From positions 1,612,001 through 1,676,000 of the forward strand of contig NZ_CP082161.1 in the NCBI RefSeq assembly GCF_023101665.1: a stretch of DNA of 64,000 bases. The letters are read 5' to 3'. A program made the translations under genes and the position numbers. Source of the stretch: Bradyrhizobium sp. 195. Lineage in GTDB: Bacteria > Pseudomonadota > Alphaproteobacteria > Rhizobiales > Xanthobacteraceae. Each line of letters begins with the position of its first letter. Position 1 is the first letter of the stretch. Positions 20,320-33,761 of this stretch are shown here, one piece after another. The notes under the pieces were generated by a model. The model did no database searches and had not been told where the DNA came from. It worked only from the letters and a program-made list of their open reading frames with translations.

Positions 20320-21849
20320 TCAGGCCACGGCTTTGAAGTCTTGACGGTGGTAGGCCCAGGGAAGCAACTGGTCGATCTCGCTGTTCGGATGGCTGTTGAC
20401 GATCCTGGTGAGGACGTCGGTGAGGTAAGCGAGTGGGTCGACGTCGTTCAGCTTGCACGTTTCGATCAGAGACGAGATAGCGGCCCAATGCTCGGCGCCA
20501 CCGTCGGAGCCCGCGAACAGCGCATTTTTCCGATTGAGCGCGATCGGACGGATCGAGCGTTCGAAGGCATTGTTGTCGAGCTCGATACGGCCATCATCGA
20601 TGAAGCGCGTCAGTCCCTCCCAGCGCGAGAGAGCATAGCGGATAGCCTCCGCAAGCTTGCCCTTCTGGCTGATCAGACCGAGTTTTGCGCGCAGCCACTG
20701 CTCGAATGCGTTGGCGAGTGGCTGGCTTTTCTGCTGCCGGATGAGACGCCGCTCCTCGGCGCTGCGACCACGGATGTCCTTCTCGATGGCGTAAAACTCG
20801 GCAATGCGCTTGAGCGCCTCGCTCGCAATGGGCGCCGGGCCAGGGGTGGCAAGTTCATAGAAGTTGCGCCGCATGTGCGCCCAGCAGAACGCCAGCTGGA
20901 CGTCGCCGCGCTCGGCGAGCTTGCGGTAGCCGGCATAGCCGTCGACCTGCAGGATCCCCTTGAAGCCGTCGAGATGAGCGATCGGCCGCTCGGCCTTGCG
21001 GTCGGGTGCATAGACATAGACGACGCCCGGTGGATCGGCGCCGCCCCATGGCCGGTCGTCAGCGGCATAGGCCCAGAGCTGGCCGGTCTTGGTGCGGCCG
21101 CGGCCGGGATCGAGCACCGGCATCGTCGTCTCGTCGGCAAACAGTTTTGATCTCTGCCTGAGCTTGCCGAGCAGACGCTCGTGCAGCGGACGCAGGTGCC
21201 AGGCGGCATGGCCGACCCAGTCCGCCAACGTCGAACGATCGAGATCGATGCCCTGGCGGGCGTAAATCTGGGCCTGCCGGTACAGCGGCAGATGATCGGC
21301 ATATTTGGATACCAGCACTTGGGCGATAGTGGCCTCGGTCGGCAATCCGCCCTCGATCAGCCGGGCCGGAGCAGGCGCCTGCACGACACCGTCTTCGCAC
21401 GATCGGCAGGCGTATTTGGGCCGCCGGATGACGAGCACCCGGAACTGCGCCGGCACCATGTCCAGCCGCTCGCTTCTATCCTCGCCGATCCGATGCAGTT
21501 CGCCTTTGCAACAGGGGCATGTCCTGTCGTCGACATCGACGACGACCTCGATCCTCGGCAAATGCTGCGGCAGTGCTCCACGATTAATGCGGCGCTTGCG
21601 AGCCCGCGCCGCGCGGGCATCAGGCGCGCTTTCGTCCTGCTCTGCCTCACCGGATGCTCCGACCTGCTCGACGTCTTCCAGACCCAGCAGCATCTGCTCC
21701 TCGGGCAGCGTCTCGGCCCGGCGGCCAAAGCGATGTCGCTGCAGCTCCTTGATGATCTGACGCAGCCGTTCGCTCTCGCAGCGCTCGGCGAGCAGCATCG
21801 CTTTCAGCGTCTGAAGGTCATCAGGCAGGGCGTCGCTCGGCACCAACAA
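20320..21849 (-). CDS. tnpC: IS66 family transposase TnpC
   Basis: A 509-residue transposase. It has an N-terminal leucine-rich helix (LKAMLLAERCESERLRQIIKEL), a HRFGRRAE motif, a zinc-finger-like CPCCKGELHRIGED near residue 115, and a second CxxC in YACRSCEDGV. The catalytic domain shows DETTMPVLDPGRGRTKTGQLWAYA near 240, VDGYAGYRKLAERG near 300, CWAHMRRNFYE near 320, and ELDNNAFERSIRPIALNRKN near 425. All are typical of IS66 TnpC. The frame is intact. It ends inside the terminal repeat region of the element. Confidence 0.93.
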   Translation of the reverse strand: MLVPSDALPDDLQTLKAMLLAERCESERLRQIIKELQRHRFGRRAETLPEEQMLLGLEDVEQVGASGEAEQDESAPDARAARARKRRINRGALPQHLPRIEVVVDVDDRTCPCCKGELHRIGEDRSERLDMVPAQFRVLVIRRPKYACRSCEDGVVQAPAPARLIEGGLPTEATIAQVLVSKYADHLPLYRQAQIYARQGIDLDRSTLADWVGHAAWHLRPLHERLLGKLRQRSKLFADETTMPVLDPGRGRTKTGQLWAYAADDRPWGGADPPGVVYVYAPDRKAERPIAHLDGFKGILQVDGYAGYRKLAERGDVQLAFCWAHMRRNFYELATPGPAPIASEALKRIAEFYAIEKDIRGRSAEERRLIRQQKSQPLANAFEQWLRAKLGLISQKGKLAEAIRYALSRWEGLTRFIDDGRIELDNNAFERSIRPIALNRKNALFAGSDGGAEHWAAISSLIETCKLNDVDPLAYLTDVLTRIVNSHPNSEIDQLLPWAYHRQDFKAVA

Positions 21850-21923
21850 ATCAGATCATATTCGCCGGAACTTTGCGACGATCTCGACCGCCCTGATTCA
21901 CTTCGCCGCAGTGCTGCCAACAG

Positions 21924-22259
21924 CTATCCGGGCTGCGTTGGCTTTGCCGTCTCCCGTGCCTCATGGACACGCCGCCCCGACAATTGAGCCGCCGACAAAC
22001 GCATCACGCCGTCTTCGATCTTCGGCCAGCGGAAGATGCCGTCCTCCAAGCGCTTCGCAAACAGGCACAGACCCGTTCCATCCCAGAAGATCAGCTTGAT
22101 CCGGTCCGCGCGTTTGGCTCGGAACACATAGACCGTGCCCGAGAACGGATCGGCCAGCATGCGCTCGCGCACCAGTGTGGCTAACCCTTCGGCGCCCTTG
22201 CGGAAGTCGACCGGCTTGGTCGCCACCATCACCCGAACCGGACCCGTTGGGCCGATCAA
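21924..22259 (-). CDS. tnpB: IS66 family accessory protein TnpB
   Basis: A 111-residue protein of the IS66 Orf2 (TnpB) family: PVRVMVATKPVDFRKGAEGL near the start, FSGTVYVFRAKRADRIKLIFWDG in the middle, and RLEDGIFRWP toward the end. Its start overlaps the tnpA stop by four bases, suggesting translational coupling. It is required with TnpA and TnpC for transposition of IS66 elements; its biochemical role is not settled. Intact. Confidence 0.93.
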   Translation of the reverse strand: MIGPTGPVRVMVATKPVDFRKGAEGLATLVRERMLADPFSGTVYVFRAKRADRIKLIFWDGTGLCLFAKRLEDGIFRWPKIEDGVMRLSAAQLSGRRVHEARETAKPTQPG

Positions 22260-22717
22260 CGGCTCGCCTTCAGCGCCCGGACGATGGCTGCGATCGTGTT
22301 GGCGTCCGCGCCGCGGCTGGCCCGGATCGTCACCCCGTCGACCTCAACTTCGATCATTCCGACATCGGCCTCGGACTTGCATCGCGGTGCTTTGCGCCGC
22401 CGGCGAAGCGCGGGCGTCGATGCGTCCACATCGACCACCGCCGGCACAAACTGCAATTCTTCCGCTTCAGATTGCCTGGCCGCAGCTTCTCTCAGTAGAC
22501 GGCGCCAGCCAAACAATTGCTGCGGCGACAGACCATGGCGCCGAGCCACGGCACAGACTGACTCCCCACTCGTCTCGATCTCCGCGACAATCCGTGCCTT
22601 GTCCTCGTCGCTCCACTTCCGCCGCCGACCAGCTCCAGTGAAGACTTCCAGCCGCCGGACCGGCTCCATGATAGCACTATGCACTGTGTCCATTCTAAGC
22701 CCAACGGTCAAAACCAA
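22256..22717 (-). CDS. tnpA: IS66 family accessory protein TnpA
   Basis: A 153-residue IS66 Orf1 protein with a helix-turn-helix: RRRKWSDEDKARIVAEIETSGESVCAVARRHGLSPQQLFGWRR. It ends with the conserved segment IEVEVDGVTIRASRGADANTIAAIVRAL. The start may be internal (ATG at about 22669, preceding EPVRRLEVFTG). It overlaps tnpB and belongs to the same transcription unit. Intact. Confidence 0.9.
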   Translation of the reverse strand: MVLTVGLRMDTVHSAIMEPVRRLEVFTGAGRRRKWSDEDKARIVAEIETSGESVCAVARRHGLSPQQLFGWRRLLREAAARQSEAEELQFVPAVVDVDASTPALRRRRKAPRCKSEADVGMIEVEVDGVTIRASRGADANTIAAIVRALKASR

Positions 22718-23497: not shown

Positions 23498-24607
23498 CTA
23501 ATCAGAGATGTCTTTCAGTGCTTCCGCCAAAAGCCTATTGTCGTCTTCAGTGCGGCTTGCGATGCGCAAGAATCGTTTGCCATTCTGAAGCGTCTTGCCG
23601 CCACTGTGCCTGATCAATATCCGTCTATCCTTTAAGAGTTTTGAGGCGATCACGTCTCCATCCGGCCAATCGGGCGGGAGTTCACAGAACACGAAATTTG
23701 CGTCGGGCTTCAGAACTCTCATTCCGTCGATGCGGCGCAGGTCTGCGTATAGTTTGTCCCTGTCGCTGCCTACCCTCACCCAACTCTGCTTTGCCGCGTG
23801 CGCCAGGTGAGGAAGCTTGCTTAGAAAAAACTCAGCAAACGTATTGACATTCCACGTGGGGAGGGCGGCTCTAATTTCGTCCATCGTCTGTACATTTGCT
23901 GATGCCGCATACCCCATCCGTAAACCGCATGTCCCGTAAATCTTTCCCAGGCTTTTGAGAACGATCACATTGGGAAATTCGAGCAAGTGATTTTCCAGGC
24001 TCGCACTTCGCCCGAGCTCACTAAACTCGATAAATGACTCATCGATCATTAGGAGTTGCTGTTGAGCTCGAAGCGCGGAAGCGAGATATAGTAAATCCGC
24101 ATAGGGAACCATCCGCGAAGTGGGATTATTCGGCGATATCACGATTGCGCCGTCGACACCATTTGTACGCGCAAATGCTGCATAGCGGTGCACATCGAGT
24201 TCAAAATCTGGCGGTGCCAGGAAAAAGCGTGACAACCGCCCGGGCAAGGCGGTGGTTTCATAGGGATTGAAGGTTGGGACCGGGACAGCAATCCTCATAC
24301 CCAGTCGGCCAAGGAGGATGGGAATCAGTTCAGCCACGCCATTGCAAATGACAAGATTATTCGCCGGCGTCTTCACCGCATCCGCAAGAAGCTGGACCAT
24401 CTGCGCATTAGGAGAGGGATAGCAAGTAATAAGCCCCGGTAGAGCGTTCTTAAGTTCGTCAAGGAACGCCTGCGGTGGAAAATACGGATTTACCAGAAGG
24501 ACGAAGTCCTTGATGTCATATTTCCAATAGCCGCCGGGGAATCGGTTGACCAGGTCAGAGACCTCGTCCGACCTAAGGGATACGTCCATTTGTGCTGCGC
24601 TGTTCAT
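23498..24607 (-). CDS. HisC/CobD-like PLP-dependent aminotransferase (phosphonate locus)
   Basis: A 369-residue fold-type I aminotransferase. The cofactor motifs are complete: ICNGVAELI near residue 88, SPNNPTS at 158-164, MIDESFIEF with the PLP Asp at 189, and the Schiff-base Lys at about 222 in KSLGKIYGTCGLRMGY. A phosphate-handling Arg is likely in GLRMGY, and a C-terminal RHSG/FLRIASR segment provides the carboxylate Arg. HisC-like enzymes act on phosphorylated amino compounds. Beside PEP mutase this suggests transamination of phosphonopyruvate to phosphonoalanine, or of a derived aldehyde to aminoethylphosphonate. It is last in a four-gene minus-strand array, 231 bp after the CDP-alcohol transferase. 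Family assignment is firm; the substrate is inference. Confidence 0.87.
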   Translation of the reverse strand: MNSAAQMDVSLRSDEVSDLVNRFPGGYWKYDIKDFVLLVNPYFPPQAFLDELKNALPGLITCYPSPNAQMVQLLADAVKTPANNLVICNGVAELIPILLGRLGMRIAVPVPTFNPYETTALPGRLSRFFLAPPDFELDVHRYAAFARTNGVDGAIVISPNNPTSRMVPYADLLYLASALRAQQQLLMIDESFIEFSELGRSASLENHLLEFPNVIVLKSLGKIYGTCGLRMGYAASANVQTMDEIRAALPTWNVNTFAEFFLSKLPHLAHAAKQSWVRVGSDRDKLYADLRRIDGMRVLKPDANFVFCELPPDWPDGDVIASKLLKDRRILIRHSGGKTLQNGKRFLRIASRTEDDNRLLAEALKDISD

Positions 24608-24838
24608 GAGTGCGACTAGCTCAACGTTTCAGGACAAACGAAAATTGCAAGATGGTCGCGATCTCTCGACAAGCTCCCGGCGAACAAGTATCGAGCAGTG
24701 CCGGTCCGTGCGGAAATGTTCTCGAACAAGTCTGGGGCACGCCGCGGTTCGCGAGACTACACGTCATCATGTGACCTGCATGGAGTGAAGCCTGCAAGCC
24801 CGAGAAGGCCATTCGCTGGATCATACTTCCATCCGCAA

Positions 24839-25450
24839 TCAAAAGGAGCGACTGGCTAAAACCACCGATGACGCGACGGCGAAGATGCTTATTGCCGTGT
24901 ACATTGTTGCGCTGAGTGGTGGCACGCGAAAAGGCGCGACATGCGCTATAGCGAGCAGCAAGAAGGCAATGTTCACGACGTCAGGAAATGCTTCGGCAGG
25001 AATAAGAGACTTAAAAAGAAATAGAAGCGCCAGGAGCGGCACGTCGTATGACAAGGGGACACCCAAGAAGCGTCCGTCACGCGACCTGCCAAAGTTCGCA
25101 AAGTAGCTAAGCCTTATTGCTCCCGTCACCAGTAGAGCGGTTGCGATCGCAAGCGCGACTTGTGAAGCTTGGCTGACTTGTACCACAACTACCGCAGGCA
25201 CAACGGCTCCATAGACGATATCTGCAAACCCGTCGAGGCTCGCTCCCATTTTTGCGACATCTGGATCGCGACCTTTGGTGCGACCTGCCACAACCCCGTC
25301 CAGGTGGTCCGATAGAACAGCCCAAAGCGCTGCTGCCACAGATAGCTCAAGGCGGTCAGAGAGAGCTAAAAACAGGCTGGCGGAGGAAAAGAGAAGACCT
25401 GTGATCGTTATCGCGTTCGCTGGATCCCAAAGGTGTTCAGCATTGAACTC
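24839..25450 (-). CDS. CDP-alcohol phosphatidyltransferase domain
   Basis: The coding sequence carries the CDP-alcohol phosphotransferase signature: SDHLDGVVAGR followed, after about ten residues, by MGASLDGFADIV, i.e. DxxDG...G...D...D with one extra residue before the Arg. Several hydrophobic segments follow, as expected for this inner-membrane family. The expected N-terminal NAITITGLLF segment lies upstream of the first canonical start (GTG at 25339) but in the same open frame, which extends back without a stop to the TGA of the preceding nucleotidyltransferase (25451-25453). No in-frame ATG, GTG or TTG exists between. An ATG at 25441-25443 behind GAGGTGAG is one frame off. So the domain is either read through from the upstream gene, frameshifted, or starts unusually. 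Confidence 0.78.
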   Translation of the reverse strand, partial: EFNAEHLWDPANAITITGLLFSSASLFLALSDRLELSVAAALWAVLSDHLDGVVAGRTKGRDPDVAKMGASLDGFADIVYGAVVPAVVVVQVSQASQVALAIATALLVTGAIRLSYFANFGRSRDGRFLGVPLSYDVPLLALLFLFKSLIPAEAFPDVVNIAFLLLAIAHVAPFRVPPLSATMYTAISIFAVASSVVLASRSF

Positions 25451-26251
25451 TCACCTCGTTTGCAAATCACGTCTCGCCGCGTAGGTATTCGTTCGGTCCT
25501 TGAAAATGCGCTCGGCAATCTCCAGATCGTCAGCATTATCAATTTCGTACCAGCTGAGGCCATCGCATCGCGCCGCTGCGAGCTGTAGGCCTCGCCTCTC
25601 TATCAGATAACTCAAAAGTTCTTCGGTGTAGGTCTGCCTAGCTCCAGCGGCGATGATATCGTCCAGCGTCGGAACGATCGTTGCCTTGAGTGTCGGCGCC
25701 GAAAGCCGTAGGAGGTTCATCGTCTTGAAAAGCTTTGGGCCATCCGCAACAAGATTTGCCGCGGTTTGCATCAATCGAAAACCTGAGATGAAGCAGTTCT
25801 GCGACAACAGAACGGCCGACCCTTCCATTGAATCATCGAAGGGAACGACTGCAGCGACGTCAGTCCCCCGGCAGGCCATCAAGTGTCGCAGCGCATCCTC
25901 TTCGAAAAAGACGTCGCCCTCGAGAAGAAAGCAATCTCCGGAGAGGAGAGCGTCGCGCGCCAGCCACAAAGAATAGGCGCTTCCGGTGCGGTCGAAGACC
26001 GTCGACTCGACATATTTGATTTTGAGTTCGCCAAAGTGGCTACCGCAGGCATATTGAATGGCGTCTTTGCGGTAACCTACCACGATCGTCACCTCTTCCA
26101 CGCCGACAGATTCCAGATTGTGCAGAGCGTTGTGAAGAATCGAAGTGCCGTTGACCTCGACCAGCGACTTCGGCCGCAGATCTGTCAGAGGACGCAGGCG
26201 AGAGCCGCAGCCAGCGGCGAGAATGACGGCGTTCTTGGGAGCATCGGTCAC
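25451..26251 (-). CDS. LicC/PntC-like nucleotidyltransferase (probable CTP:phosphonate or phospho-alcohol cytidylyltransferase)
   Basis: A 266-residue MobA/LicC-type nucleotidyltransferase. The N-terminal NTP-binding motif is LAAGCGSRLRPLTDLRPKSL (residues 11-30) with the activating Lys at 28. VGYRKDAI near 57, LLEGDVFFEED near 108-118 with metal-binding acidic residues, and WYEIDNADDLEIAE near the C-terminus follow the LicC/PntC pattern. Such enzymes couple CTP to phosphocholine or, in PntC, to 2-aminoethylphosphonate. Between PEP mutase and a CDP-alcohol transferase the likely job is to form a CMP-activated phosphonate in the cytosol. It is separated from the downstream transferase by one TGA in the same frame. 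Fusions of cytidylyltransferase and CDP-alcohol transferase are known (for example in di-myo-inositol phosphate synthesis). Confidence 0.85.
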   Translation of the reverse strand: MTDAPKNAVILAAGCGSRLRPLTDLRPKSLVEVNGTSILHNALHNLESVGVEEVTIVVGYRKDAIQYACGSHFGELKIKYVESTVFDRTGSAYSLWLARDALLSGDCFLLEGDVFFEEDALRHLMACRGTDVAAVVPFDDSMEGSAVLLSQNCFISGFRLMQTAANLVADGPKLFKTMNLLRLSAPTLKATIVPTLDDIIAAGARQTYTEELLSYLIERRGLQLAAARCDGLSWYEIDNADDLEIAERIFKDRTNTYAARRDLQTR

Positions 26252-26615
26252 CGTTTAGTTCCTTTTTCGTCGCGCCTCAAAGGTGAAACACCCATCGACT
26301 TCTTCGGCGCCAGCTTAGGCATGTTGAAGCGACATCAGGTCTGCCGGAGCCATCTGAAAATGGGGCCCAAGCGTGAAGGCAGACAAATGGTCCTCGTCGG
26401 TCCTTTCTCCAGAGAGAAGGGAGGCGCTGGATCCGCTGCCTCGAGCTGCCGAGATGGCAAAGTGCGCATTTCGGTTGAGTGAGGCGTGCTACGCCATCTA
26501 AGGACATCTCAGTGCAATGATTAGGCATTTGAGATTGCAGTCGAACCTGGCCAGCTAGGAAGTCCAGGACAGTAGGTCCTCGACAACGAATATGCGCTCC
26601 TGTGTCGACGAAACC
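26252..26615 (-). other. Gap between PEP mutase and nucleotidyltransferase
   Basis: About 360 bases with no recognisable gene on either strand. The gap is large for an operon, so either a small gene was lost here or a second promoter serves the downstream genes. Confidence 0.4.
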
Positions 26616-27557
26616 CTATTTGCGCAGTTCAGCGTCGGGCGGCAAATATCGCGTTTCCGCACGGGCGAGTTCGTCGTACTTGAACAGTTCGAAGACTTCC
26701 TCGAGAGTAGCAATGTGCGGCTCAATGCTCGCGGTGCTTTCCTCAGCGATGATGCGGCCGCAGACTTGACGCATTGCCGCTATTGCCGCTCGCATAGACT
26801 GGTTGGCCCAGATCACCGTTGAGATGCTGGCTTTGCGGTATACAGAGATTGGTGTTCGATAGTATTTCGTCGGAACGATCACGACCGGCAATCTGTTCTG
26901 CCAAGCGCGCGCGAACGAAAGGATTTCGTCCGCGGTGCTCCCTCGCGAATGAATGAGGATCGCATCGGCTCCCACGTCGGCGTAGGCGTGAGCGCGCGAA
27001 AGTGCTTCGTCCATCTCATGCCCAGCGATCAACGCCTCGATCCTTGCAACCAAGATCAAGTCGTCCGCGACTGTGTCCTTCACTGCCCGGAGGCGGCCAG
27101 AGAATTCGTCGATATCGGCGAGGGGGTGCCGATGCCCAACAAACGAGTTCATCTTCGGAAAGCAGCTGTCCTCGAGCGCGACGCCGGCTGCTCCACGCTG
27201 ACGGAGCCTGCGTGTCACGAGGCGCGCATTGTTGAAATTCCCGAAGCCGCCATCTCCGTCAACGAGCACAGGTAGTTCGCTCGAGTCCACGATCCGCTCG
27301 ACTACGTCTACGAGTTGGCTCCACGACGCTTCGTTGGCATCGCGGTAGCCCAGGGAGCAGGCAACAGACAGGCCGGACGCCCAGAGGCCTTTGAACCCTG
27401 CGCGCTCAGCGATTGCGGCGGAGAGACCATCATGCGCTTCCATGAGGAACGATAGCTCTCTGCGGCAGCAGATTTCGGCGCGCAGCATGTCAGCACGTGA
27501 AGAACCGGCGGATTGATCAGGGCCGTTGGCGAGAACAGATGGTAATCGGTCTTGCAT
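26616..27557 (-). CDS. pepM: Phosphoenolpyruvate mutase
   Basis: A 313-residue member of the isocitrate lyase/PEP mutase superfamily. PEP mutase rearranges phosphoenolpyruvate to phosphonopyruvate, the entry step to nearly all natural phosphonates. Seen motifs: GLWASGLSVACSLGYRDAN (active-site Asp side), LVDGDGGFGNFNNA with the metal-binding Asp pair, the gating-loop motif EDSCFPKMNSF, ARIEALIAGHEMDEAL with the conserved Arg, and DAILIHS with the conserved His. The gating-loop consensus is EDKxxxKxNS; here the first Lys is Ser while the second Lys and Asn remain. The ATG at 27557 is preferred because an AAGGA site precedes it; a TTG nine codons upstream is possible. No phosphonopyruvate decarboxylase gene is visible nearby. 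Confidence 0.9.
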   Translation of the reverse strand: MQDRLPSVLANGPDQSAGSSRADMLRAEICCRRELSFLMEAHDGLSAAIAERAGFKGLWASGLSVACSLGYRDANEASWSQLVDVVERIVDSSELPVLVDGDGGFGNFNNARLVTRRLRQRGAAGVALEDSCFPKMNSFVGHRHPLADIDEFSGRLRAVKDTVADDLILVARIEALIAGHEMDEALSRAHAYADVGADAILIHSRGSTADEILSFARAWQNRLPVVIVPTKYYRTPISVYRKASISTVIWANQSMRAAIAAMRQVCGRIIAEESTASIEPHIATLEEVFELFKYDELARAETRYLPPDAELRK

Positions 27558-28159
27558 GCCAATTCCTTGTGATGACCGGCCCAACGTGTAGACCGGCCGA
27601 TTTGATCAATCGATAGGTGACATGCTTGCGTCATCTAGATCAATTACGAGGGTTGGTAGTTGACCGGGCCCGCAAACCTGTTCCGTGTCGGAGTGCTCAA
27701 GAGTCATTGCTAAGCTCCGCCGGTCATTTGAGTGATGGCGCAAATGGAAAGCACAGCTGTGCTCTGGTCTAGGCGCCGACGACTGCATCATCGATCTTGC
27801 ATTTGTCGACACGGTTTTGAGACTGCGCGATCTGCGCGAAGGCTTCTGAAGTCGATGGCATCTAGAGAGTTCGGGCTTAAGCAAGTTAGGGCGCGAATTC
27901 ATTGTGGACGCGCGCCTTCAAGGTTTGGGGAGGGCGCAGTGCGCCAAATTCTGATCCCCGCAGCGGCGGCATACCATCGCGACCGACGCTTTCTAAGGGC
28001 GGGAGACGCCTCGGTCGCATACTCAGAAAATTGGTGGCTCAGTTCCCCGAACTTGAGGCGAGCTCTTCAGCCAGCTTTAATGCGAGGATCGGAATGATGT
28101 TCGCGCTGGGGGGTATTATGGAGTCGCTTCCTTCGGGGCATCGAAGCACGGCGCGGTTT
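27558..28159 (-). other. Region upstream of pepM, no gene recognised
   Basis: About 600 bases containing presumed promoter sequence of the phosphonate locus and otherwise only short, unrecognisable open frames on both strands. Confidence 0.35.
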
Positions 28160-30993: not shown

Positions 30994-31290
30994 GTACAGC
31001 TTCCTGTCCCCTCGACCCGAGGGAGACCTCGCACGCAGTGCGCCATGGCACGAGACGGATCGGCAGTTAGGGCGAGGCCCGGTGTGCCTTGGAGCCCGGG
31101 GCCTCATAACCTCAGCAGCCTGACAAGAGGTTGTTCGGCTACACGTCCAGCTTATCCGGAGTAGCCAATCTCGCTTTTGATGTTGCGCAAAGTCTGCCTG
31201 GGGCCAGCCGGCCCCTTGCGGCGGTTGGAGAGGACAGCGGGGCCGGCGTAAGCGCGAATTTCTCCGCACCTTTTGCTTTTGAGTGCTCTG

Positions 31291-31803
31291 ATGCATGAGG
31301 TGTCCACCAAAATAGGTGGACACCTTGTGATGGCAGCGGATGATCAGAAACTGCGGGTCAGGCTTGTTGGCCGGAACGGTCGCCGGCGCTACGAGGCGGC
31401 ATCGAAAGAGCGTCTTGTCACGGCCTGCCTTGAGCCTGGGGTTTCGGTATCGAGGCTTGCACTCGAACATGGGGTCAACGCGAACCTCCTTCGGAAGTGG
31501 ATCAAGAAGCACACCGCCACCAGGTCGCTGCCGCCGTCCTCACGCCCGGCGTTCATCCCGGTTCAGCTTGAGGGGTCCGCCGATCGAGCCCTGTCGCGGC
31601 AAGACAGCGTGGCGACGGTGGATTTGCCGGCGACTTGCGATGAAATGCGTGGTTCGGAACCCAAAGGGACTCCAGCTTTTTGTTCTCCGGCCAAAGTGAG
31701 CGTGTCGCTGCCGAACGGCGTGAAGCTCGCGCTGGAATGCGGCGATGTGGATGCATTGACGGCGATCATCGGAGCACTGGGCCATGTTCAGACTGGGCGG
31801 TGA
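31291..31803 (+). CDS. tnpA: IS66 family accessory protein TnpA
   Basis: A TnpA-type protein of up to 171 residues with a helix-turn-helix: NGRRRYEAASKERLVTACLEPGVSVSRLALEHGVNANLLRKWIKKH. It ends with VSVSLPNGVKLALECGDVDALTAIIGALG, the typical C-terminal segment. Two starts are possible: ATG at 31291 or ATG at 31330. The second lies directly behind a perfect 26-base dyad (31299-31324), which would place a hairpin in the leader. The 3' end overlaps tnpB by 20 bases. Intact. Confidence 0.88.
   Translation: MHEVSTKIGGHLVMAADDQKLRVRLVGRNGRRRYEAASKERLVTACLEPGVSVSRLALEHGVNANLLRKWIKKHTATRSLPPSSRPAFIPVQLEGSADRALSRQDSVATVDLPATCDEMRGSEPKGTPAFCSPAKVSVSLPNGVKLALECGDVDALTAIIGALGHVQTGR
31299..31324 (+). 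promoter_or_regulatory. Perfect 10-bp dyad at the start of tnpA
   Basis: GGTGTCCACC and GGTGGACACC flank a 6-base AT-rich loop. It could be an operator or an mRNA hairpin controlling translation from the ATG at 31330. It is not the terminal repeat of the element. Confidence 0.6.
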
Positions 31804-32137
31804 CCTGCAGGTCTATCTGCACCGTGAGCCGATCGACTTCCGGGCTGGCATCAACAGCCTTGCGGTCCTGGTCCAGGAGACGATGGCGCTCGATCCATTC
31901 ACTCCGGCGGTTTTTGCGTTCTGCAATCGCCGTTGCGACCGGATGAAGTTGCTGTTCTTCGACCGGTCCGGCTTTGTGCTGGTCCTGAAGCGGCTGACCG
32001 AGGACAAGTTCCGATGGCCGCGCCGCCAGGAGGCGGTCGTCACGCTGACGACCGAGCAATTGCACTGGATCCTTGACGGCATCGATATCGATGCGATGGT
32101 CCGCCATCCGGTGCGGCAATATCAGGTTGCCGGCTGA
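31784..32137 (+). CDS. tnpB: IS66 family accessory protein TnpB
   Basis: A 117-residue IS66 Orf2 protein: LQVYLHREPIDFRAGINSLAVLVQ at the start, then AVFAFCNRRCDRMKLLFFDRSGFVLVLKRL, and FRWPRRQEAVVTLT. Overlaps tnpA by 20 bases and precedes tnpC by 52 bp. Intact and needed for transposition together with TnpA and TnpC; its molecular role is unclear. Confidence 0.92.
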   Translation: MFRLGGDLQVYLHREPIDFRAGINSLAVLVQETMALDPFTPAVFAFCNRRCDRMKLLFFDRSGFVLVLKRLTEDKFRWPRRQEAVVTLTTEQLHWILDGIDIDAMVRHPVRQYQVAG

Positions 32138-32189
32138 GCTCTCGAGTTGAGCGGTTGACGCGTCGGTACGGTTCAGATTCAAGAATCCG

Positions 32190-33761
32190 ATGAATCGAAC
32201 CGGCGATCCGAGTGTTGAAGTGCTGTTGGCGCGCATTGCTGCGCTGCAGGCGGATAACCATCAACTCGCCGACCGCGTCGTCAAACTCGAGGAAGAACTG
32301 GCGCTGGCACGCCTGCATCGTTTTGCGCCACGCAGCGAAAAGCACGTCGATCGTCTCTTCAATGAAGCCGAGCAGGCCGCCGATGAGGATGACGCCGGCA
32401 GTGAAACGAACAATATCGCCGAACTTCCGGACACGGGCTTGCCACCCGTCGAAAACACAACGGGAAAGAAGCGCGGCCGCAGGCCGCTGCCGGCGAACCT
32501 GCCGCGTGAGCGCGTCGAGTATGACCTGCCCGACGATCAGAAGGCGTGTCCTTGCTGCCGTGGCCAGATGCATCGCATGGGCGAGGCTGTCACCGAGCAA
32601 CTTCATATCGAGGTGAAGGCGAAGGTTTTACAGAACGTACGCTTCAAATATGCGTGCCGCCATTGCGATCGCACCGGGATCAACGCCCCTGTCGTGACCG
32701 CGCCGATGCCGACGCAGCCGCTGCCGGGCAGCGTTGCCACGGCCTCAACGCTGGCGTTCGCGCTGGTTCATAAATATGTCGATGGCACGCCGCTCTACCG
32801 CCTGGCGCAGGCCTTCGAACGCGCCGGTGTTCCGGTCAGCCGCGGCGCTTTGGGTCGCTGGGTGATCGGCTCGAGCGAGAAACATCTCTCCCGCATCTAT
32901 GACGCCCTGAAGCTGCGGCTCAGATCGCAGCCTCTCATCCATGGCGACGAGACGACGGTTCAGGTCCTCAAGGAGAAGGACAAAAAGGCCACCAGCACAT
33001 CGTATATGTGGGCTTATCGCAGCGGCAAGGGCAGTCACGAGCCCATCGTTCTTCTGGATTATCAGCCGGGCCGCGGCCAAATCCACCCGCAGGCCTTCCT
33101 CGGCGATTACCGCGGCATCGTGATGAGTGACGGCTATACCGCATGGCGCACGCTGGAACTGGCCACCCACATCGGCTGCATGGCCCACTCCCGGCGGCGC
33201 TTTGTCGATGCCCTCAGGGCGAGGAAGAAGGGCGGCGGTCCGCCCGAGCAGGCGCTGCGGTTCTTCGACCAGCTCTACCGGGTTGAAAGGCAGGCGCGGG
33301 ACGGAATACCGGAGAAGGGTGAAACACAGGCCGACTGCATTCGCCGCTTCCGCCAGCAACATAGTGTCCCCATCCTCAATGCTCTCAAGGTATGGCTCGA
33401 TGACATGGCCCCGAAGGTCTTGCCTGACAGCAAGCTCGGCGACGCCGTATCCTACACCCGAAACCAATGGGAATATCTGACGCGCTACACCGGGGACGGC
33501 AGCATGCCGATCGACAACAATCTTCTGGAGCGCGACATCAGGGTTTTTGCAACTGGCAGGAAGAGTTGGTTGTTCAGCGATACCGTGGACGGAGCCAAGG
33601 CCAGTGCCGTCGTCTACAGCCTGATGCTGACCTGCCGCGCCTCACGTGTCGAGCCGTTAGCGTGGTTGCGCCACGTCCTCACCGAATCGCCTCAGCGCGC
33701 CGGCGACGCCGATATTACCGACCTGCTGCCCTTCAACTTCCACAAAGCCGCCACTGCCTGA
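32190..33761 (+). CDS. tnpC: IS66 family transposase TnpC
   Basis: A 523-residue transposase. It has an N-terminal coiled coil (VVKLEEELALARLHRFAPRSEKH), a Pro/Arg-rich linker, and a zinc-finger-like CPCCRGQMHRMGE near residue 118 with YACRHCDRTG after it. The catalytic core has HGDETTVQVLKEK near 250, SDGYTAWRTLE near 312, HIGCMAHSRRRFVDA near 330, and MPIDNNLLERDIRVFATGRKSW near 437. Complete, with its stop about 75 bp from the right end of the element. Confidence 0.94.
   Translation: MNRTGDPSVEVLLARIAALQADNHQLADRVVKLEEELALARLHRFAPRSEKHVDRLFNEAEQAADEDDAGSETNNIAELPDTGLPPVENTTGKKRGRRPLPANLPRERVEYDLPDDQKACPCCRGQMHRMGEAVTEQLHIEVKAKVLQNVRFKYACRHCDRTGINAPVVTAPMPTQPLPGSVATASTLAFALVHKYVDGTPLYRLAQAFERAGVPVSRGALGRWVIGSSEKHLSRIYDALKLRLRSQPLIHGDETTVQVLKEKDKKATSTSYMWAYRSGKGSHEPIVLLDYQPGRGQIHPQAFLGDYRGIVMSDGYTAWRTLELATHIGCMAHSRRRFVDALRARKKGGGPPEQALRFFDQLYRVERQARDGIPEKGETQADCIRRFRQQHSVPILNALKVWLDDMAPKVLPDSKLGDAVSYTRNQWEYLTRYTGDGSMPIDNNLLERDIRVFATGRKSWLFSDTVDGAKASAVVYSLMLTCRASRVEPLAWLRHVLTESPQRAGDADITDLLPFNFHKAATA

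Follow-up and report, generated by a model that had tools for sequence, protein, structure and literature searches.

In the pathway to FR-900098, FrbH is described as a cytidylyltransferase joined to a decarboxylase dependent on pyridoxal phosphate (PLP), with cytidine monophosphate (CMP) activation of an amino-phosphonate (PMC8976061, PMC6697681), and in phosphonyl tailoring loci with PntC (Rice et al. 2019) phosphoenolpyruvate (PEP) mutase is found with an NTP_transf_3 enzyme. Both resemble a locus in Bradyrhizobium sp. 195, contained in a stretch of 64,000 nucleotides (hereafter the window; G000:C1:1612001-1676000 of the 9.14-Mb genome). The original prediction read this locus as four minus-strand genes, among which the mutase, the cytidylyltransferase and the HisC-like PLP gene were confirmed by family searches, whereas the cytidine diphosphate (CDP)-alcohol phosphotransferase (CDP-AP) is not intact owing to a frameshift. 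In window positions, the locus consists of:

26616-27557, minus strand: PEP mutase gene (pepM/aepX), with a possible alternative TTG start upstream at 27584

25451-26251, minus strand: LicC/PntC-like cytidylyltransferase gene (NTP), matching PF12804, PF00483 and LicC 1jyk

24839-25450, minus strand: CDP-AP frame (PF01066), broken in Bradyrhizobium sp. 195

23498-24607, minus strand: HisC/CobD-like PLP enzyme gene (PF00155), an FrbH-type PLP domain as a separate protein

The likeness to FrbH is one of layout, not of FrbH sequence: the same two domain types are present and the HisC-like protein clusters in a tree with the PLP parts of long proteins of this kind, although in the window they are two separate proteins and a CDP-alcohol transferase has been added. 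Similarly, the locus shares with the PntC loci the pairing of PEP mutase with an NTP_transf_3 enzyme and the logic of a CMP-phosphonate, but it has no phosphonopyruvate decarboxylase (Ppd) and its mutase carries the motif EDS. In the phosphonoalamide pathway (PEP mutase PnaD and aminotransferase PnaA) the mutase is pulled by an enzyme of the aspartate aminotransferase type, as may also hold for the 25 of 44 sister loci with such a gene, whereas the window locus would use CMP activation and CDP-AP. The phospho-amino-acid decarboxylases CobD and SMUL_1544 provide the nearest folds to a model of the HisC-like protein, whose best NCBIfam match is CobD. However, the protein falls below the CobD cut-off, lies outside the CobD rows in a tree and shows about 24-28% identity. 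In rhizopine systems, the mos and moc genes for production and catabolism share the symbiotic replicon, as putative phosphonate production and breakdown genes do in a number of related strains, although the chemistry here would be that of phosphonates. In the symbiosis island ICEMlSym of Mesorhizobium loti R7A, pepM (msi327) and the aspartate aminotransferase gene aatA (msi326) are described as strongly expressed in nodules and dependent on NifA2 (PMC3538637). The window resembles this description in that pepM lies on a symbiosis island, but it lacks a gene like that for aspartate aminotransferase (AAT-like gene) in tblastn searches, and searches upstream of its mutase gave no Nod-box and no consensus site for NifA, FixK or sigma-54.

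The reading preferred here, for and against which the chances appear evenly balanced, is that of a Ppd-free, transamination-driven and CMP-activated phosphonate operon of symbiosis islands, in which the HisC-like enzyme would be a decarboxylase and the CDP-alcohol transferase would act last.

Gene families and the frameshifted transferase

The entry enzyme had been predicted to be PEP mutase and not a lyase of another substrate, and this identification holds. The 322-residue form scores 327.7 bits and so passes the TIGR02320 equivalog cut-off of 319.55, the protein matches PF13714, and its best match in the PDB is PEP mutase 1m1b at 316 bits, against 191 bits for phosphonopyruvate hydrolase. 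Assignment as a hydrolase or a methylisocitrate lyase was rejected as both score lower. Judged by its sequence, the enzyme would form phosphonopyruvate. Its motif, EDSCFPKMNS, departs from the pattern EDKXXXXXNS, by which Rice et al. are described as having kept mutases (PMC6697681), so that mutases with EDS would be left out there. Among 77 open reading frames (ORFs) with the motif pattern, 61 have EDS and 16 EDK, the latter in nine of ten Ppd loci, in Mesorhizobium, in a few other loci and in a hydrolase remnant (L052); the tenth Ppd locus, L122, has EDS.

The cytidylyltransferase exceeds the cut-offs of both PF12804 (59.4 bits) and PF00483 (48.5 bits). Its best match in the PDB is LicC 1jyk, the nucleotidyltransferase/class V aminotransferase 6pd1 also being matched, and on sister plasmids the corresponding gene is annotated as belonging to the phosphocholine cytidylyltransferase family.

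The CDP-AP frame of 203 residues (24842-25450) scores 30.5 bits to PF01066 (cut-off 22), and the columns DxxDG..A..G...D...D are unchanging across 10 aligned relatives. The textbook motif of CDP-alcohol phosphotransferases has a shorter spacing to the second G than is seen here. In Bradyrhizobium sp. 195 one base is deleted near the start, so that the expected ATG (25441-25443) opens just 11 codons; the alignment shows an additional base at this site in nine relatives. The gene is intact, with 201-202 residues, in all 11 HisC-type relatives compared, whereas in this strain no ORF left in the frame is longer than the 166 residues that start from an internal GTG at 25339. A fusion of NTP with CDP-AP was rejected, as HisC-type relatives have CDP-AP with its own ATG in another frame and the two frames coincide in the window only because of the deletion. 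The last step, CDP-alcohol transfer, has probably been lost in this strain.

Within-Bradyrhizobium comparisons of the locus genes give ratios of non-synonymous to synonymous substitution rates (dN/dS) of 0.13-0.32 (for CDP-AP among the relatives only), which speaks for selection and against chance; the comparisons of HisC with Mesorhizobium L125 were saturated and gave no value. Only a little short of evenly balanced is the possibility that the locus in Bradyrhizobium sp. 195 is a decaying remnant that yields no final product. The CDP-AP frameshift is unique to this strain among 12 compared, and its own phosphonopyruvate hydrolase (PPH) gene, at a distance of 64 kb from the window mutase, is cut short and shares a single ORF with aminotransferase sequence. 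However, the reading frames of the remaining three genes are open and show dN/dS of 0.16-0.32 against relatives, the deletion could be a sequencing or assembly error, and the 166-residue ORF may still be made.

Synteny and linkage to symbiosis genes

One contig scan with the window mutase gave 259 candidates, of which the best 79 that were distinct served as sister loci, a sample biased toward close relatives in which some genomes contribute two loci; gene presence was scored by tblastn (E 1e-15, 60% coverage) within the stretch examined. The mutase and NTP occur together in 57 of the 79 loci and are joined by CDP-AP in 44, which bears out the earlier expectation of conserved synteny elsewhere. 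An AAT-like gene is added in 23 of these 44, HisC in nine, both in two (so that 25 of the 44 have the AAT-like gene) and neither in ten. Nine of the last ten have another type of PLP aminotransferase, whereas L079 has none of the types searched for.

That no phosphonopyruvate decarboxylase is visible had also been noted, and the wider search agrees: tblastn with a Ppd protein found none in the window, none of the 44 sister loci with mutase, NTP and CDP-AP has one, and none in the strain's own genome exceeds the family cut-off. Neighbouring genes of about 400 residues, considered as Ppd candidates, were rejected because the family search identified them as aminotransferases. Conversely, all ten Ppd loci lack NTP and have an O-methyltransferase and phosphonoacetaldehyde dehydrogenase. 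The two layouts are thus mutually exclusive at one locus, although a single genome may hold both, as in CSA112 (L082 and L087). A pepM-ppd-pdh set has been described in a free-living Bradyrhizobium (PMC10708946), so that the Ppd layout is already known. The loci concerned are:

L087, L088, L089, L091, L093, L097, L098, L100, L108 and L122: PEP mutase, O-methyltransferase, Ppd and phosphonoacetaldehyde dehydrogenase

A search of 195 Bradyrhizobium genomes for the mutase, PPH-like genes, nodC and HisC gave 84, 40 (E 1e-75), 105 and 12 positives, respectively. Four of the 40 PPH-like proteins lie above the TIGR02321 cut-off of 374.4 bits and 36 below it (about 274-367 bits). For the one tested further, from G013, the best PDB match is phosphonopyruvate hydrolase 2dua (337 bits), with any PEP mutase at no more than 261 bits. 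nodC is present in 76 of 84 genomes with pepM and in 29 of 111 without (Fisher p 2e-20), and PPH in 37 of 84 against 3 of 111 (p 3e-13). Among nodC-positive genomes only, PPH accompanies pepM in 34 of 76 and is found without it in 1 of 29 (p 2e-5). All three p-values ignore the shared ancestry of the genomes. In the 37 genomes with both pepM and PPH the two share one contig in 28, at a median distance of 26 kb and within 70 kb in 26. All 12 HisC genomes have pepM. Of their 13 HisC copies, 12 have a pepM match at a distance of about 3 kb and one at 17.5 kb. PPH was found in 8 of these 12 HisC-type genomes and in 29 of the 72 other genomes with pepM.

The phosphonate locus belongs to symbiosis islands. 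In Bradyrhizobium sp. 195 a first copy of nodC (G000:C1:1678435-1679613) lies 2.4 kb beyond the window end, which places the phosphonate locus about 39 kb from nodC. A second copy lies at G000:C1:1692233-1693414, and nifH, at 1182435, is also on the contig of the window.

Candidate pathway and the HisC-like enzyme

From these families we infer substrates, an order of steps and a type of product. PEP mutase would form phosphonopyruvate, which an aminotransferase would convert into phosphonoalanine; this enzyme would be the AAT-like protein where its gene is present, whereas in the HisC clade a housekeeping enzyme or the HisC-like protein itself would take this part. A CMP-phosphonate would then be formed by the LicC/PntC-like enzyme. 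Most likely, the HisC-like PLP enzyme would decarboxylate the phosphono-amino acid, either free or as its conjugate with CMP, in the manner reported for FrbH, to leave an aminoethylphosphonate (AEP) group, and the CDP-alcohol transferase would move the phosphonate onto an alcohol. The original proposal of a transamination pull followed by CMP activation and transfer thus fits the families, the synteny and the Ppd-free layout, whereas its use of the HisC-like protein as transaminase is doubtful and the transferase is broken in this strain.

That protein had been called a HisC-like aminotransferase, of which the PLP fold family (PF00155) stands. However, it misses the HisC cut-off (TIGR01141, 124.7 bits against 276.55), and its best NCBIfam match, also missed, is CobD (TIGR01140, 180.4 bits against 290.55). 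It falls in a clade of 30 rows with support of 100/99, formed by 15 long proteins, most of FrbH-like layout, and 15 separate proteins, with the CobD and HisC rows outside. Of the 15 long rows, 11 have a recognisable NTP domain; AK83, NGR234, M. mediterraneum and the short protein of A. vitis do not. A search for fusions in 398 Pseudomonadota genomes gave two matches, one of them in the strain's own genome, and so carries little information. The protein has the motifs D-E-S-F and WNVN; in place of the former, D-E-A-F is seen in CobD rows and D-E-A-Y in most rows annotated as HisC. Its predicted structure (predicted local distance difference test, pLDDT, 91.8) is nearest in fold to the phospho-amino-acid decarboxylases CobD and SMUL_1544. 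On scores, tree and model, the HisC-like enzyme may be a decarboxylase and not a transaminase; if so, a PLP enzyme resembling CobD would take part in making an amino-phosphonate.

Several observations weigh against the decarboxylase pathway. The FrbH likeness rests on domain layout and reported activity and not on FrbH sequence, and the window mutase has EDS in place of EDK. HisC-named chains follow closely behind CobD in the fold comparison (38.5 and 37.0), and the CobD and HisC rows are only about 1-3 apart in Z, so that fold alone does not decide the function and the model was given no weight in the odds; a shared CobD fold proves no function. CDP-AP was not found in 13 of the 57 NTP loci within the stretch examined, and M. 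loti 582 has the order PEPM-AAT-NTP-HisC with no CDP-AP annotated alongside. No dedicated aminotransferase was found in the window by tblastn, and the single match to the AAT-like protein in the strain's own genome at E 1e-40 is 34% identical. PPH would serve phosphonoalanine and not AEP, and its presence in two-thirds of the HisC-type genomes argues against a product that is AEP throughout. Far from the locus, the strain's own genome also holds two split-gene relatives of Ppd (142+62 and 122+55 bits):

G000:C1:3280477-3281533 and 2924595-2925550: split-gene Ppd relatives, below the family cut-off

Putative breakdown genes, competing products and regulation

The surroundings of PPH were read in 18 stretches from the 40 PPH-positive genomes. 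An AAT-like gene adjoins PPH in 13 of the 18, intact at 399 residues in L202 and L207 and as shorter ORFs in L196, L197 and L206 (five stretches). Genes for a family-5 binding protein and transporter lie beside PPH in five (G013, G092, G107, G034 and G078), while in the remaining stretches there is either no such gene or just a match, about 30% identical, to an ATP-binding cassette (ABC) ATPase. L208-L210, where PPH is above the cut-off, have neither the AAT-like gene nor a second frequent neighbour, c26, and form a separate context. This neighbour, a 185-residue family with no Pfam match (for example L122 11140-11697), adjoins PPH in 14 of the 18 stretches. In five Bradyrhizobium loci (L110, L112-L115), mutase and NTP are followed by a PhnF-type regulator (above the TIGR02325 cut-off in L110, the one tested), a type I phosphodiesterase and a family-5 transporter. 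In the strain's own genome, a relative 39% identical to the window mutase turned out to be the truncated hydrolase:

L052 7869-17521 (G000:C1:1565000-1584000): truncated PPH beside binding-protein and ABC-transporter matches

Probable genes for making phosphonoalanine and probable genes for degrading it thus lie close together. A PMC literature search, of whose long result lists a small part was seen, gave no account of such a pairing of production and breakdown, and four phosphonate terms are all absent from PMC9927569.

A phosphonolipid or phosphonate-decorated glycan at the cell surface is a possible product, though we hold it to be less than probable. The CDP-AP family is compatible with it, its best NCBIfam matches, below cut-off, being PssA and archaetidylserine synthase, and Rice et al. 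are described as predicting cell-surface tailoring for most ppm clusters (PMC6697681). However, none of the nine annotated plasmid stretches, whose gene tables are incomplete, has a product named glycosyltransferase. Several of them have transporters, an opine-dehydrogenase family gene, and asnB or formyltransferase genes, and a soluble compound agrees better with the linked hydrolysis genes and, in part, with the genes for uptake.

It is doubtful that the HisC-like enzyme is instead the phosphonopyruvate transaminase, with phosphonoalanine itself as the transferred headgroup. This would account for the nine HisC-only loci among the 44, where the stretch examined lacks an AAT-like gene, for PPH, an enzyme of phosphonoalanine breakdown, in HisC-type genomes, and for the distance of the strain's own AAT match. 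On the other hand, the HisC cut-off is missed and CobD scores higher, D-E-S-F departs from the D-E-A-Y of most HisC-annotated rows as from the D-E-A-F of CobD, the model is nearest CobD, and L125, L129, M. loti 582 and Rhizobium sp. 007 carry genes of both the aspartate aminotransferase and the HisC-like type.

The adjacency of making and breakdown genes also brings in an exchange compound of the rhizopine kind as a rival to a surface phosphonate. Bacteroids would make a compound derived from phosphonoalanine by means of the symbiosis-island pepM, NTP, CDP-AP and PLP genes, and free-living kin would take it up again through the family-5 binding-protein ABC transporter, hydrolyse the ester with the type I phosphodiesterase and burn it with aminotransferase and PPH, from genes 5-70 kb away. 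We regard this extension, the boldest that agrees with the linkage, as unlikely. That NTP and the HisC-like enzyme act on phosphoserine or phosphothreonine, in chemistry of the CDP-ethanolamine type with the mutase as a separate neighbour, is very improbable. In its favour, an Erwinia rhapontici plasmid stretch has an NTP-PLP fusion and CDP-AP with no mutase annotated, tblastn with the window mutase gave no match in 19 kb of G251, and the nearest folds of the model are threonine-phosphate decarboxylases, but the HisC-like gene was never found without pepM in the 195 Bradyrhizobium genomes and the mutase accompanies NTP in 57 of the 79 loci.

If the preferred reading is right, symbiosis islands of many Bradyrhizobium strains and of some Mesorhizobium strains encode a phosphonate pathway that does without Ppd and falls outside the EDKXXXXXNS filter of Rice et al., and many such strains also have nearby genes expected to degrade phosphonoalanine. 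This raises the question of what purpose phosphonates serve in plant symbionts, and why M. loti pepM is strong in nodules yet its mutation is reported to cause no symbiotic defect (PMC3538637). In R7A, the values given for nodules of the wild type and of the nifA2 mutant are 827 and 7.7 units for a pepM::lacZ fusion and 2456 and 16 for aatA (column order inferred), with all fusions below 20 units in broth; nodules formed by the pepM and aatA mutants are described as effective, and the authors state that no NifA promoter precedes pepM or aatA (PMC3538637). From the pepM-aatA-asnB numbering, the R7A genes appear to be orthologous to the window locus. Across 80 upstream stretches, sigma-54-like scores of at least 13 occur in eight, against some 3 expected (3.6% in shuffles), and NifA-like sites in 25, against some 9 expected (11%), with shuffles that preserve base content only. 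Upstream of pepM in the Mesorhizobium loci L125, L127, L128, L129 and L130, sigma-54-like sites are present in five of five and paired NifA-like sites in four of five; this region is 92% identical throughout, so that conservation of the sites adds nothing.

At the window locus no ATP-grasp ligase was recognised, no search aimed at such ligases having been made. Transposase-like genes, which we take to be of the IS66 type, flank the locus on both sides (window 20320-22717 and 31273-33761).

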